The translations under genes were made by a program, and so were the position numbers. The notes under the pieces were generated by a model that searched no databases, had not been told where the DNA came from, and saw only the letters and a program-made list of their open reading frames with translations. Positions 55,655 through 63,626 of a stretch of 64,000 nt of DNA are shown here, piece after piece. The stretch's first letter is position 1. Every line of letters starts with the position of its first letter. Source of the stretch: Gallionella sp. Its GTDB lineage: Bacteria; Pseudomonadota; Gammaproteobacteria; Burkholderiales; Gallionellaceae. The stretch is taken from assembly GCA_028688275.1 (NCBI GenBank), contig JAQTYN010000009.1, forward strand, positions 1 to 64,000, given 5' to 3'.

Positions 55655-55818
55655 GTGCAATTTAATCGAAACTAACACCCTAAAAAACAAGGCATTCAGT
55701 AGCTGAAAAATTTTATTTTCCAACAAGTGATATTTTGATTTTTGCATACTGCACGCCCTAAACGCACTGCATATTGCATTACAATACGCACGTCAAAATA
55801 ATTTACAAGGTGACAGTC

Positions 55819-56109
55819 ATGGGAACACTAACGCTACGCTTACCCGAACAATTAGATGCGCGCCTGAGCTTATTTGCCAAATTGGAAGATAGCAGCCGCT
55901 CGGAATTGGTGCGCATGGCACTGGAAAAGTTTCTACGCGAAAGAGAACGCGAGCAGTTGCTTGCTGAGGTGGTACAGGCGGCACGATTTTTGGCAACCGA
56001 TCCTGAAGCCCGCGCTGAAAGCACGGCGATTGCTGACGAGTTTGCTAGCGCAGACAGTGCAGCACTGACGCAGCTCGAACAAAATGCCCCAGAAAAGTGG
56101 TGGCAATAA
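55819..56109 (+). CDS. ribbon-helix-helix antitoxin
   Basis: MGTLTLRLPEQLDARLSLFAKLEDSSRSELVRMALEKFL; overlaps toxin start (TAATG). Confidence 0.88.
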   Translation: MGTLTLRLPEQLDARLSLFAKLEDSSRSELVRMALEKFLREREREQLLAEVVQAARFLATDPEARAESTAIADEFASADSAALTQLEQNAPEKWWQ

Positions 56110-56471
56110 TGCGGCGCGGTGAAATTTGGGTCGCCAAGCTCAATCCCAACACAGGCGCGGAAGCGGGGAAAGTGCGTCCTGTGCTGATTTTGTTGGATGA
56201 CGCGTTGTTAGCGACGGGCATGAGTCCCGTGTTGTGCTTGCCCTTGACCAGCAAATTATTCAGCCATCTGGCTGCATTGCGGGTGGAAATCCTCCCACGA
56301 GATCGCTTGCTCAAATCATGCTATGTCATGCCCGAACAATTACGCGCACTGGATCGAAATCGCTTCGGCGACGGGCCACTGACCATGCTCACCGCTGCGG
56401 AAATGGCACAAGTCGAACGACTGTTGCTGGTGTGTTGTGGTATGGCGGGGTATCTCAGCTCCTCGCACTAA
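56109..56471 (+). CDS. MazF/PemK-type toxin
   Basis: MRRGEIWVAKLNPNTGAEAGKVRPVLILLDD. Confidence 0.9.
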   Translation: MRRGEIWVAKLNPNTGAEAGKVRPVLILLDDALLATGMSPVLCLPLTSKLFSHLAALRVEILPRDRLLKSCYVMPEQLRALDRNRFGDGPLTMLTAAEMAQVERLLLVCCGMAGYLSSSH

Positions 56472-57029: not shown

Positions 57030-57866
57030 TCAGGCTCCAGTCGCAATCGTCGCAGCCCAACTTACACCACTCTTTCGCAAGCAGGCTGCCGCCGTCATGG
57101 AAAAAGGTGCCGCTGGCCGAACCATTGCGCGTAATTGATTCCGCTTTTCCTCTATTCTGATTTTTTCAGCTGGCCCAATCGGTCCCGCCAAAGCAATGTC
57201 TCTGCACTCTTCAATTAATAATCGGCACTTCGCCCAAACCTTTGCTCTAGCCTCCTCAAGTTTTTCAAAATCTAGCCGCAGATGCGTGACCGTGGCTGTT
57301 ACCCGAAGCATGTCCGTTGCGTCTGCATCATGGTGTGGTACGGCCTTGCCATTATCAATAAAATCTAGCAATGGCGGGTCTGCAGCGTTTGCAGGATCAA
57401 GTAACACTGGACATTCATTTAGATAAGAAATCCCTCCGAATTTAGCCACTGGGCTGTTGGGCAATAGTGGAAACATCACGCCCTTTTTTCCGTTCCCTAC
57501 ATTTCCACAGATACGATAGTTTTTCCAATCATAGGTCAGCCACCAGTAACCATCTTCATAGGTGATTTTTTTCTGTCCAACTTTACGTTTGCAGGCATTC
57601 TTGGGACGAAAATGCTCAACATCTCTGTACGAAAAAACGTCTTCAGCTTCTGAAAACCAGCATTTATTGTGTGACAGGCTCAGCAGCCAATCCTTAATCT
57701 GCCCCCAAATTTCATTTGCTTTGGTATCGAGTATTAAATCACGCGTCGCTTTATCTGGCGCAGCAGTAAGTGCTGCTGTCAAAGTTGCGGCGGAGGTCAG
57801 CCATACCTGATCTGGTAGTCCATTTTTAACTGGCCCTGTAGTTTCAAGAAGGGGAATATATCTCAT
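57030..57866 (-). CDS. HNH-endonuclease-like protein (PtuB/retron-HNH-like class)
   Basis: HNKCWFSEAEDVFSYRDVEHFRPKN...YRICGNVGNGKKGVMFPL...ECPVLLDPANAADPPLLDF; overlaps ATPase gene by 4 nt. Confidence 0.78.
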   Translation of the reverse strand: MRYIPLLETTGPVKNGLPDQVWLTSAATLTAALTAAPDKATRDLILDTKANEIWGQIKDWLLSLSHNKCWFSEAEDVFSYRDVEHFRPKNACKRKVGQKKITYEDGYWWLTYDWKNYRICGNVGNGKKGVMFPLLPNSPVAKFGGISYLNECPVLLDPANAADPPLLDFIDNGKAVPHHDADATDMLRVTATVTHLRLDFEKLEEARAKVWAKCRLLIEECRDIALAGPIGPAEKIRIEEKRNQLRAMVRPAAPFSMTAAACLRKSGVSWAATIATGA

Positions 57867-59491
57867 GATTTCTTGCTGAATATTTCTTCTAGGAGAGCAT
57901 CAGCTCGCTCGTTACGACTCTTAACTTCTTCAGCCGTCAGGCCAATTGTCGAGCGCTGCTCGCGACGACGCATGGCCTCAATGAATTCTTTTTCCTCGGG
58001 CAAGCGGTAGGTTCGAAGTAAGCCCGCCAGCTCAAGCTCCTCTGAAAGCTGTTTCAGCTTTTTGTCTTCGCTTTTGGTACGAGTCGGCAAAGCAGCGAGT
58101 CTCTCCCGTTCAGAAATTGCCCAAAGAGTATTTGGTGGCAATGCAGAGTCAAGACCAAACACTTCGCTCGTGAGCAACCGGTCAATGCTCATACCTGGTG
58201 GTTCGTCCTCAGGCGGGTATGCGGTGGTAGTTCCATTTTCACAGGAGAGGATGCGCACATGAGTTCTAGGGTGGGCACTGATCATCAATGGATTGTGGGT
58301 TGCTATAAGCACTTGGCTATTGCCCTCCATTGCTGGAGACGATTCAAAATCAATGGGGTTTACCTCTCTTGATTCTTTAGCGTGCTGCTTTCCATCCTGA
58401 TATGGAAATAAAGCCCGGCGGAGCATGTCACGGTATTCATAAGTCCAGCGTGGATTCAAATGCGAATCTGGCTCATCCAACAAATAGAGTGCCTCATCAG
58501 ACTGAGTAAATAATAACAAGCCAAACACAGAAACAAGCTGCTGCTCACCCTCACTCAGTTGGTCAAACCGCACCAGCCCACCATCTTTGCGCTTGCCGAC
58601 GACACGAATCTCTTCGACAAGATCACTTAGATACATACTTTCCAAATGATTAAAAAGGAGCTTCGGGCTCTCATAAGGGGCTCTTAGCTTTTCGAGATGC
58701 TCTCTATCGCGAATGTACAAATACAATCTCTCCGTACTCTGTGTGCGCCCGCGAATATCACCTTCAGTAGTTTCTGCATTTTTTATTGGAGCCAATGCGG
58801 CCGAACGCAACCGCTGCATAAATTCAGTAAAATTCCCACGCGCCCCCCAAAATAAATCGTCAGAATTATCCTTTCTGTTTGCCCCCTGCTTAGCCCACCA
58901 TGGCGATTTCAAGACTACTAATGCTGAGTCAAATGAAACAATTCCAAGTAGTTCTTCACGAATATAGGTGGCCAGTTCATGTTTTTCAAAAAACAAAGCC
59001 ATCAGGGCAAGATTGGCATAGTCCTTTCGACAAAAGAAAAAACGACGCGGAGCATCAGCATCCTCATGGCTAAGGTTCGCCTGATAGTATTTCTTCGTTG
59101 GTTCTGAAAACAAACTTTCAAGGCGGTTATTCCAGCCAGAATAGTAGGCAAAAACATACTTGGGCAAATAGTCTCGAGCGTTTTTCTTAAACGCTGCCAC
59201 TGCTATCTTGTGGCCATCTACCGTAAAACTGATTGACTCTCGCTTTGCGTGAGGATCGGCTTTTACATGTATCTTGTGCCCATGACAGTAATACTGAATT
59301 TCATAGGCGAAGCGCTCTACGGGAGCTGCGCTCTCAAGCGCCCGAAATATTTCAACCAAATTTTCGATAAGGTTTGATTTTCCCGAACCATTACGGCCCA
59401 ATAGAACCGAGATGGGGACGGTCTCTTCAAAGTTGATCTCGAAGTTCTTTAGATTTCTATCATCAGGAATTTTGAGCCAATCAATGCGCAT
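57863..59491 (-). CDS. ABC/SMC-like AAA ATPase, restriction-system-associated type
   Basis: LLGRNGSGKSNLIENLVEIF; FDQLSEGEQQLVSVFGLLLF; ALYLLDEPDSHLNP. Confidence 0.9.
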   Translation of the reverse strand: MRIDWLKIPDDRNLKNFEINFEETVPISVLLGRNGSGKSNLIENLVEIFRALESAAPVERFAYEIQYYCHGHKIHVKADPHAKRESISFTVDGHKIAVAAFKKNARDYLPKYVFAYYSGWNNRLESLFSEPTKKYYQANLSHEDADAPRRFFFCRKDYANLALMALFFEKHELATYIREELLGIVSFDSALVVLKSPWWAKQGANRKDNSDDLFWGARGNFTEFMQRLRSAALAPIKNAETTEGDIRGRTQSTERLYLYIRDREHLEKLRAPYESPKLLFNHLESMYLSDLVEEIRVVGKRKDGGLVRFDQLSEGEQQLVSVFGLLLFTQSDEALYLLDEPDSHLNPRWTYEYRDMLRRALFPYQDGKQHAKESREVNPIDFESSPAMEGNSQVLIATHNPLMISAHPRTHVRILSCENGTTTAYPPEDEPPGMSIDRLLTSEVFGLDSALPPNTLWAISERERLAALPTRTKSEDKKLKQLSEELELAGLLRTYRLPEEKEFIEAMRRREQRSTIGLTAEEVKSRNERADALLEEIFSKKS

Positions 59492-59494
59492 AAT

Positions 59495-61135
59495 TTAACC
59501 CTTGGATTTACCAACACTCACAAGCTCAAGACGCGACTCATCGTCTTTGCTGACCCTCAGCAAACCAGCACTGATTTCACGATTAAGCTGCACATAAAAA
59601 TCATCGATACTCAATCTTGATGATGACCATATAGCTTTAGCATCGTGTTGTTTGATGGAATTAAGTATGTTCGCCAAATGATTTGGCGCAATGTCTTCAA
59701 GTTTTGTTAGTGAGTATTTTTTCATCGTGTCGCCTTTGACTTTGGCTAAAGAAATCAATGCCACCTTTTGGGCTTGCTCTGGCTTCGCTTTCTTGGTGGT
59801 GCGTTTACTTATTGGCTTGGTTGCACCATCTGCACGGTTGGACTTGATTCGCTCAAGCAAGGCGCTGGCAGGTTCGTCGCTGGGGTCTTGCGGCACAAGC
59901 TCGCCGCGAAAGGCTTTGGCGAGCGTGGACGGGGTGAGTTTTTCGACTTGGGCACGGGCGGCGGTGTAGCGGGATTCTAGACGGTCGGCGTAGGCGAACA
60001 GGGCTTCGACGCGGCGGACGATTTCGGTTTGTTCTTCACGTGACGGCCAAGTCGCGGGCGCAGACATAACAGTTGGCTGATTAATTTTGGGCATATTGCC
60101 AGCCGTGCCTGTTGCGTTGTCGCGAAAATGACGACGGACTGGCTCACTCAGCAGCAGATAGTGAAGAAACTTTGTCTCTACAAGGTCATTTGCCTTCGCC
60201 TTCATCATCAAATCAGGGTAGATGAATGTTGATGGCGGACCGTCATATATGGCACTGATGCCAACACTTTCGAGTGTATTTGCTCGCTGAATAAGAATGT
60301 CGCCCGGATGTAGCCACAGATGTGAACCCGGCGGAATCTCTTCGTCGATATATTTAAAATGCTCCCCTTTAAACCGTCCGCTTGTTGTCGCGGTCAAGGT
60401 CAGTGATTTAACGGAAGTTGGGTATTCAACCGCCCGAGGTGAATAACCATTGCGCGGTTTTCCAATCAGCAGGTTGGCAAGCGTGCCTTTCTGCCATACC
60501 GAAGAATGGGACGCAAATGCCTGTTCAGTGCGCCAATCCTCCGTCAGCTCGCCCGAAGTAGCGGCGGCAAGGACGGACTGGCGGAAGCGTTTAAGGATGG
60601 TGGGGATGCGGTCGAGGCGGTCGCGGCAGGCATCTACCCGCGCCAGCACTGCGTCGAGTTTGTTGGCGATGCGTCTTTGTTCGTTGAAAGGTGCTAGATC
60701 AATTTCGGTAGATTCAAATTTCCCTTTGGTGACGTGACGCAGCCCAACTCCACCTTGCGCAATATTGATGAGCTCATTAAGTTTTTGGTTAATCGCAAAC
60801 CGAAAGAAGCTCTTTTCGATCAAAGCCTCATTGAAATCCACCCTAAAAATATGCTGGTTCAGTACGGCTTCCCCGCCCCGCCACACATGAGCACCGAAAG
60901 ACGTACCAGGCGTACCTGACCAAGCAAAAAGCAATTCTCCACCATGCAAGTGATGATTATCCGCAAACTCGCCGTTGAAGTAATTGTAAAGCGCTTGAGG
61001 CCTATTGAGATTTTGGATACGAACAATTGGCAGCCCCTCTGTAGTCCATTCACTTGGCTTGAAAGCACGGCCGTTCTTAAGAGAACAGAGTGAACCAATT
61101 TCAGCCGTGGCCCAACCATTCGGCAACTCGCTCAC
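59495..61135 (-). CDS. hsdS: type I restriction-modification specificity subunit HsdS with C-terminal extension
   Basis: MSELPNGWATAEIGSLC; LAPFNEQRRIANKLDAVLARVD; second TRD; ~100-aa extension after ALLERIKSNRA. Confidence 0.93.
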   Translation of the reverse strand: MSELPNGWATAEIGSLCSLKNGRAFKPSEWTTEGLPIVRIQNLNRPQALYNYFNGEFADNHHLHGGELLFAWSGTPGTSFGAHVWRGGEAVLNQHIFRVDFNEALIEKSFFRFAINQKLNELINIAQGGVGLRHVTKGKFESTEIDLAPFNEQRRIANKLDAVLARVDACRDRLDRIPTILKRFRQSVLAAATSGELTEDWRTEQAFASHSSVWQKGTLANLLIGKPRNGYSPRAVEYPTSVKSLTLTATTSGRFKGEHFKYIDEEIPPGSHLWLHPGDILIQRANTLESVGISAIYDGPPSTFIYPDLMMKAKANDLVETKFLHYLLLSEPVRRHFRDNATGTAGNMPKINQPTVMSAPATWPSREEQTEIVRRVEALFAYADRLESRYTAARAQVEKLTPSTLAKAFRGELVPQDPSDEPASALLERIKSNRADGATKPISKRTTKKAKPEQAQKVALISLAKVKGDTMKKYSLTKLEDIAPNHLANILNSIKQHDAKAIWSSSRLSIDDFYVQLNREISAGLLRVSKDDESRLELVSVGKSKG

Positions 61136-62646
61136 GCCTCCACCTCTGCAACATCCCCGCCCAACTCTGCCAGTATCCCGCGCAACTCGTTCAACGCCGC
61201 TTCCAGTTCGCCCATCGCTTCCTGCGCCAGCATTGCCGGTTCCGGCAATTCGTCCGCGCTGGTGTCGCTGTCGTCCTTGAGCCAGGCAATGTCCAGGCTG
61301 TCGCCGCGTGCGGCGATTTGTTCGCGGGTGAATTTGCGGAAGCGTCCTTGTTCTCCGGTGTCCTTGCGCTTGGCCAGCGCCTTGGCACCACCGAGCGGGT
61401 CGGTGCCGAATGATGCTTCAAATTCTTCAAAGGTTTTGTCAGTGAGCTGGGTGCGTTTGCCGTATTGGGGCATGTTGGCGCGCAGGTCGTAGACCCAGAC
61501 TTGTTTGGTGTTGTCTTTGTCCTTTTCGCCCCGGGTAAAAAACAGCACGTTGGTCTTGACCCCTTGCGCGTAGAAAATGCCGGTGGGCAGGCGCAGGATG
61601 GTGTGCAGGTTGCATTTATCCATCAGGTCGCGGCGGATGTCGGTGCCGACGTTGCTCTCAAATAGCACGTTGTCGGGCAGTATGACGGCGGCACGTCCAC
61701 CAGGCTTCAATCCACGGTAGATGTGTTGCAAGAAGGCGAACTGCTTGTTGCTGGTGGGGTAAGTGAAGTCGGTGCGACTGGGCAAGCCACCGCCTTTTTT
61801 GGTGCCAAACGGTGGGTTGCTGAGAATGAGCGTAGCACCTTGCTTGCACAGTTTTTCGCCATCATCTCCGAGCGTGTCTCCATATTCGATACCGCCATCT
61901 ATACCGTGAAGCAACAGATTCATCAACGCCAAACGGTGCGTATCCTGCACATGCTCCATACCGTAGAAGGTGTTGTTCCGGTATTTTTTTTGCTGCGTTT
62001 TTGTCCAGTCATCAGGGTTAGTGTGCTCACGCAGGTAGTGATTGGCAGCGATCAGAAAGCCGCCAGTACCCGCTGCTGGATCCTGGATGGTGTCTTTCAG
62101 CTCTGGCTTCATTACTGCCACCATGCTGTCGATCAACACGCGCGGCGTAAAGTATTGGCCTGCACCCGATTTCTTCTCGTTAGCATTCTTTTCCAGCAAG
62201 CCTTCGTAGAGGTCGCCCAGGTCTTCGCGGTGTACGCTGTACCAGTCAAGTTTATCGATCTCTGTCACCAGCTTGGACAGCGTTACTGGCTTTTTAATGA
62301 ACGTGCTGGAGTTCGCATAAATTTCTTGCACTACGCCTTCGCCATAGCGTGCATAGTCACGAAGCATGTCTTCATACATACGCAGGCGTTGAGGAGCCGC
62401 TGCACCAATTAAATCTTCCCAGCGTATGCCCGGTACCTTAACGGGCTGTTTGTTTTTGTCCAGAACAAACTCCCCGTCTTCCCCTACTTGCTTAATAACC
62501 AGCTCGCTCTCGCCGCCAGTTTCTTGCATCATCTTTAAGAAAAGCAGGTAGGTCAGTTCAGTGACGTATTGGTGATAGGTAACGCCATCGTCTTTGAGGA
62601 CGTTGCAGAGGTTCCAGAGTTTGCCGACGATGTCGTTTGTAGTCAT
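61132..62646 (-). CDS. hsdM: type I restriction-modification methyltransferase HsdM
   Basis: DPAAGTGGFLIAANHYL; ILSNPPFGTKKGG; overlaps hsdS by 4 nt. Confidence 0.96.
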   Translation of the reverse strand: MTTNDIVGKLWNLCNVLKDDGVTYHQYVTELTYLLFLKMMQETGGESELVIKQVGEDGEFVLDKNKQPVKVPGIRWEDLIGAAAPQRLRMYEDMLRDYARYGEGVVQEIYANSSTFIKKPVTLSKLVTEIDKLDWYSVHREDLGDLYEGLLEKNANEKKSGAGQYFTPRVLIDSMVAVMKPELKDTIQDPAAGTGGFLIAANHYLREHTNPDDWTKTQQKKYRNNTFYGMEHVQDTHRLALMNLLLHGIDGGIEYGDTLGDDGEKLCKQGATLILSNPPFGTKKGGGLPSRTDFTYPTSNKQFAFLQHIYRGLKPGGRAAVILPDNVLFESNVGTDIRRDLMDKCNLHTILRLPTGIFYAQGVKTNVLFFTRGEKDKDNTKQVWVYDLRANMPQYGKRTQLTDKTFEEFEASFGTDPLGGAKALAKRKDTGEQGRFRKFTREQIAARGDSLDIAWLKDDSDTSADELPEPAMLAQEAMGELEAALNELRGILAELGGDVAEVEA

Positions 62647-62667: not shown

Positions 62668-63204
62668 TCAAGCCGCATTGACCTGATCATCTTTCCAGAT
62701 GGATTCGTTGAAGGTTTCTAGCACTTGCTGGAGTTGCCCGTTAAATATTTTGTCGAGCCGAGTAAATTCGCCCCCTTCACGCTTGAAAATCAAGTCAGGA
62801 TCATCCAGTGCGGCATGATCGACCAGCATATTTGCTTTGGTTTGCGCGGCGATTCTTTTTAGCCAATCGCGCTGAGGCCCAGTCCAGGTGTGTGAAGCTA
62901 GCAGCTTTTGCAGCGCATGATCAACGCGTTCATTATTGGGTATGAGCGCATCACCGATAGCGGCATCTCGACTAGACTTTTTAGCTTCAATCACCGCCAG
63001 TGGTTTGCCATTTTTGCCAAGCAACACATAATCACTGAATTGGTGCCCTTGGTAAGGGCTATTCGGTTCAAAAATCCCTTCAGGTAGCCCTGTCAGGATG
63101 TCAAACTCTTCGATGACCTGCGTGGGATCTTTGACGTTCCAACCTGACAAGGCGAGTTGCTGGTCGATCAGTTCTGACCTTGTTTGTGCTTCAGATTTAG
63201 TCAT
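62668..63204 (-). pseudogene. hsdR: internally deleted HsdR: N-terminal nuclease segment fused in frame to EcoEI_R-like C-terminus, helicase motor absent
   Basis: QFSDYVLLGKNGKPLAVIEAKKSSRDAAIG then DALIPNNERVDHALQKLLASHTWTGPQRDWLKRIAAQTKANMLVDHAAL...RLDKIFNGQLQQVLETFNESIWKDD; only 178 aa. Confidence 0.85.
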
Positions 63205-63549: not shown

Positions 63550-63626
63550 TGGTGGTGATAGGTGGATTTGAACCACCGACCCCAGCGTTATGAGTGCTGT
63601 GCTCTAACCAACTGAGCTATATCACC
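63550..63626 (-). tRNA. tRNA-Met (CAT, elongator)
   Basis: Reverse complement GGTGATATAGCTCAGTTGGTTAGAGCACAGCACTCATAACGCTGGGGTCGGTGGTTCAAATCCACCTATCACCACCA. Confidence 0.95.

Follow-up and report, generated by a model that had tools for sequence, protein, structure and literature searches.

The 64,000-nucleotide stretch of Gallionella sp. DNA analysed here (the window) carries a type I restriction operon whose first gene raises the question of how a restriction subunit came to retain parts of its two ends and nothing in between. This gene, hsdR', comprises 178 codons at positions 62668-63204 of the minus strand, with zero internal stops or frameshifts. The initial annotation had described it as a nuclease start joined to an EcoEI_R end, in an intact frame and without a motor, and had attributed this arrangement to an in-frame deletion within one hsdR gene. 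Pfam searches and a check of the open reading frame agree with the description. The comparative analysis points to another origin, and we estimate a probability of roughly 0.88 that hsdR' is what was left when two distantly related type I restriction genes fused.

The Pfam search of the 178-aa product detected HSDR_N on residues 57-86 (profile positions 128-154 of 198) and EcoEI_R_C on residues 79-170 (profile positions 72-163 of 163), and returned no helicase domain. The SF2 translocase motor of an HsdR subunit is thus missing from the chimera, and only the last 92 of the 163 EcoEI_R_C positions are present. The PD-(D/E)XK nuclease is likewise incomplete. Its D (D58) and ExK (E73-x-K75) are retained, and Q87 and Y91 of the QxxxY motif are gone, as are the ensuing core helix and strands. 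Family A proteins, from which this half derives (see below), carry Q87 and Y91 where the chimera has I87 and N91, which bears out an earlier suspicion that QxxxY had been lost. Searches against NCBIfam assigned residues 4-82 to the start of EcoAI/FtnUII-type HsdR (NF046051), of which everything beyond ExK is absent, and residues 79-172 to the end of PRK11448-type HsdR with EcoEI_R_C (NF008521, PF08463), of which the first 92% is absent. This split provided the first hint of two parents.

Compared separately, as the initial annotation had proposed, each half of the chimera has its own close full-length relatives, and these belong to different families. Codons 1-80 (62965-63204, minus strand) come from a family A hsdR with an EcoAI-like N-terminus. 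Residues 1-84 show up to 89% amino acid identity to the family A N-terminus (in locus L067), and 85-87% to full-length L069 and others. Codons 85-178 (62668-62952, minus strand), encoding the end of EcoEI_R_C, were assigned through amino acid identity to family B C-termini, which reaches 77-90% over residues 79-178. Both halves are therefore far above chance, at ~80-90% identity to full-length HsdRs. Family A HsdRs are ~932 aa long (full-length members being mostly 932) and occur in Rhodocyclales, Methylobacillus and others, and family B HsdRs, of ~1,130 aa, occur in Gallionella, Sideroxydans and others; the two families align with each other at ~30% identity.

When 84,980 species genomes were scanned, 80 relatives were retained, all of which matched either the N-terminal half or residues 79 onward, and none both. 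The locus matching chimera residues 1-104 (L114) is a plain family A gene, aligned over 1-522 of the reference. The same division between N- and C-terminal matches was observed among the plasmid matches listed, in viral contigs, where a single weak match spans residues 2-97, and in 101 related genomes. A true copy of the fusion should rank first in the scan of the 84,980 genomes, and none was found there; the same join or short architecture, which had been expected to be worth seeking in related genomes, was not found in the viral contigs, the 101 relatives or the plasmid matches listed either. A search of the genome itself for a full-length hsdR found no close family A or B copy. It did identify three other full-length HsdRs, all distant (G000 C93, C10 and C107; L001-L003), with frames of 1124, 1033 and 1052 codons, each of them with an HsdM-like gene close by. 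Other remnants of hsdR were seen in related genomes: a family B C-terminus in a 215-codon open frame with a garbled end (G020; L056/L068), and a family A N-terminus of 86 codons (G026; L053).

Side-by-side alignment of the DNA located the join in a 12-nt tract at 62953-62964 (minus strand), spanning codons 81-84, coding for AAIG and common to both parents. The earlier placement of the switch, at about residue 84 near nt 62950, was thus close. The exact 12-mer, GCCGCCATCGGC, is present at the junction site in L071 and L080 (family A) and in L050 (family B). At the join, family A reads RDAAIG-REQAKQY and family B RQAAIG-DALVPYNERV, and the chimera reads RDAAIG-DALIPNNERV. BLASTN searches with the open reading frame delimited homology to family A from the ATG to ~nt 251 and homology to family B from ~nt 241. 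The frame was preserved because both parents read the tract as AAIG. The tract fits microhomology-mediated recombination but is no proof of it. Many pairs of A and B genes have other common runs of 10-18 nt, which rules out the junction tract as their longest repeat. Breakpoints in family A hsdR genes were seen to cluster shortly 3' of ExK (codon 87 in L067, codon 82 in L107, ~codon 76 in L053 and codons 81-84 in the window), possibly reflecting a fragile or recombining site, or chance.

The genes flanking hsdR' were examined with regard to the same two families. Upstream, ARAGORN identified a tRNA-Met (CAT) at 63550-63626 of the minus strand, 345 bp from the chimera, and family A hsdR genes follow a tRNA-Met in L067, L085 and L118. 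In six further loci (L074, L082, L088, L102, L105 and L123) the family A hsdR is preceded by a tmRNA or tRNA gene, which suggests that this family may sit in tRNA- or tmRNA-linked islands. Downstream lies an intact hsdM (61132-62646, minus strand; 504 aa, N6_Mtase and HsdM_N domains). Its product shares 77-81% identity with family B HsdM, against ~27-34% with that of family A, which assigns the downstream operon to family B. With an A-type tRNA gene on one side and a B-type HsdM on the other, the fusion bridges a family A neighbourhood and a family B operon. In the family B relatives L059-L062, hsdR and hsdM are separated by ~740 bp, as against 21 bp in the window.

From this arrangement we infer a route. 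A family A hsdR would have adjoined the tRNA-Met, and a family B operon of the form hsdR-hsdM-hsdS-ptuA-ptuB would have lain downstream on the same strand, or would have been imported by recombination. Recombination at the short common tract would then have linked codons 1-80 of hsdR-A with the final 94 of hsdR-B, with the loss of ~91% of A, ~92% of B and any intervening DNA, leaving an intact HsdM-HsdS methyltransferase and the Septu pair. No genome with both parents in tandem was found among those searched, nor was an empty site beside the tRNA-Met; where the flanking EamA gene is present in the nearest relatives, the tRNA-Met and a matching left flank are both missing.

The in-frame deletion first put forward would have removed the middle of one hsdR. 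It accounts for the unchanged position of the gene, for its intact frame and for a nuclease start followed by an EcoEI_R end, and it would require a parent with both termini; yet full-length family A HsdRs lack this C-terminus and full-length family B HsdRs lack this N-terminus. Given this split parentage, with each half having its own close full-length relatives in one of two families of such low mutual identity and with an HsdM of the family B type, an internal deletion was discarded as extremely improbable. The part of the proposal that stands is the loss of restriction, which the missing parts indicate; the part that does not is its origin within a single gene. It is just as improbable that an assembly or library artefact merged two loci. 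The genome is a draft in 112 contigs, which would leave room for such an error, but identity at the join extends over just ~12 nt, and the words used in assembly are usually longer than that. Moreover, the assembly holds neither parent elsewhere, and the two flanks, tRNA-Met for family A and HsdM for family B, each fit the half of the chimera that they adjoin.

The chimera should not be able to restrict, cut or translocate DNA. Restriction is unlikely because the protein has lost QxxxY and the PD-(D/E)XK strands that come later, along with the SF2 motor and a portion of its C-terminal domain. Across 23 family A sequences Q87 and Y91 are invariant, and in EcoR124I long cleavage lags result when either residue of QxxxY is altered (PMC4454674). 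The AlphaFold2 model of the chimera (alignment of 32 sequences) has a mean pLDDT of 49.3, with residues 51-90 in the 30s, and that of the intact family A nuclease segment (alignment of 23 sequences) has a mean of 66.7. Beyond residue 78, the model of the intact segment continues into a long helix and a further three strands, which are impossible in the chimera.

These observations also bear on whether the fusion was retained as a selected small protein, docking for instance on HsdM-HsdS and modulating methylation or PtuAB. Its open frame, in-frame join and first place in the operon would suit such a role, as would the contact with the methylase presumed for the C-terminal helical domain of EcoR124I (PMC4454674). 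Values of dN/dS between the chimera and its parents are low where computable, a signal that largely predates the fusion, with silent sites saturated in the comparison with family A. At invariant sites, the chimera shows 0 changes at 28 family A sites and 2 at 55 family B sites (Y90N and G146E), and relaxed constraint is not clearly visible in its codons. Against selection stand those two substitutions at invariant family B positions, the loss of nearly half of the C-terminal domain, the low confidence of the model and the failure to find a second example in the genomes, viral contigs, relatives or plasmid matches listed. We consider a selected small protein highly improbable, and the minimal nuclease or assembly factor envisaged by the initial annotation finds no backing in a fold that is cut through, in a low-confidence model and in an architecture that the searches found nowhere else. 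The chimera is almost certainly a dead remnant of the fusion, and probably a fairly recent one.

The genes downstream of the remnant are intact. Following hsdM, hsdS (59495-61135, minus strand; 546 aa) contains two Methylase_S target-recognition stretches, and with the N6-MTase and HsdM_N domains of HsdM and the DPAAGTGG and NPPF motifs this constitutes a type I methyltransferase. It is followed by adjacent genes for a Septu ATPase, ptuA (57863-59491, minus strand; 542 aa; PADLOC PDLC00293, full length, E 4e-148), with GRNGSGKS as its Walker A motif, and for an HNH-type nuclease, ptuB (57030-57866, minus strand; 278 aa; PDLC00333, near full length, E 5.8e-72), which overlap by 4 bp. Judging from these sequences, HsdM-HsdS may continue to methylate and PtuAB may continue to act in defence. 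Beyond ptuB, at 55762-56468, two small overlapping plus-strand open reading frames have, by eye, the look of a CopG-type antitoxin and a MazF/PemK-type toxin.

Seven other loci combine hsdM, hsdS, ptuA1 and ptuB1, and six of them (L178, L179, L187, L188, L190 and L191, with varying gene order) showed no HsdR within the sequence retrieved, absence being judged by five HsdR references and ORF length and the plasmid locus L190 lying near the start of its record. The only HsdR-bearing locus among the seven is on a plasmid of Pseudoalteromonas KG3 (L186). By contrast, hsdMS loci with a related, more distant ATPase carry HsdR in 8 of 8 cases, and in all six of these that were scanned the next gene is not PtuB1; the difference in HsdR presence gives a Fisher p of ~0.001 in a small, post-hoc sample. 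The operon type hsdM-hsdS-ptuA-ptuB may thus be able to work without HsdR. It is a possible, if doubtful, extension of this that HsdM-HsdS-PtuA-PtuB forms an HsdR-independent defence, in which methylation marks self, the Septu pair acts as effector and hsdR was lost here as dispensable. Among the papers available for searching, none on Septu inside hsdMS operons was found. A Septu system reportedly cleaves tRNA-Tyr (PMC13096335), so the target of PtuAB need not be DNA.

The locus resembles several known systems without coinciding with any. As in orphan type I methyltransferases, where hsdR is lost and hsdM-hsdS retained, the restriction subunit is broken, and in the window hsdM and hsdS are intact; the hsdR deletion reported for S. 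aureus JSNZ is an example of such loss (PMC12554148). Unlike in those orphans, the remnant in the window derives from two hsdR families, and the operon goes on to encode a Septu pair. The loss of hsdR is ordinary in kind and unusual in route. The Septu proteins align with the PADLOC models PtuA1 and PtuB1 over almost their full length, and the pair does not stand alone, lying directly 3' of hsdM-hsdS with gene ends that overlap or almost touch. Pairs of an AAA ATPase and an HNH nuclease in type I operons (TIGR04435; PADLOC PDC-M01) similarly place an ATPase-nuclease pair after hsdS, but those examined keep HsdR and their nuclease belongs to a different HNH family.

A short HsdR should accordingly not be taken for a minimal enzyme, as matches to its N- and C-terminal domains may stem from two genes. 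The cross-family fusion clearly illustrates how restriction systems that are neighbours, or that succeed one another, can destroy each other. The more useful lead is the hsdM-hsdS-ptuA-ptuB set, which suggests a methylation-gated Septu system with no need of HsdR.
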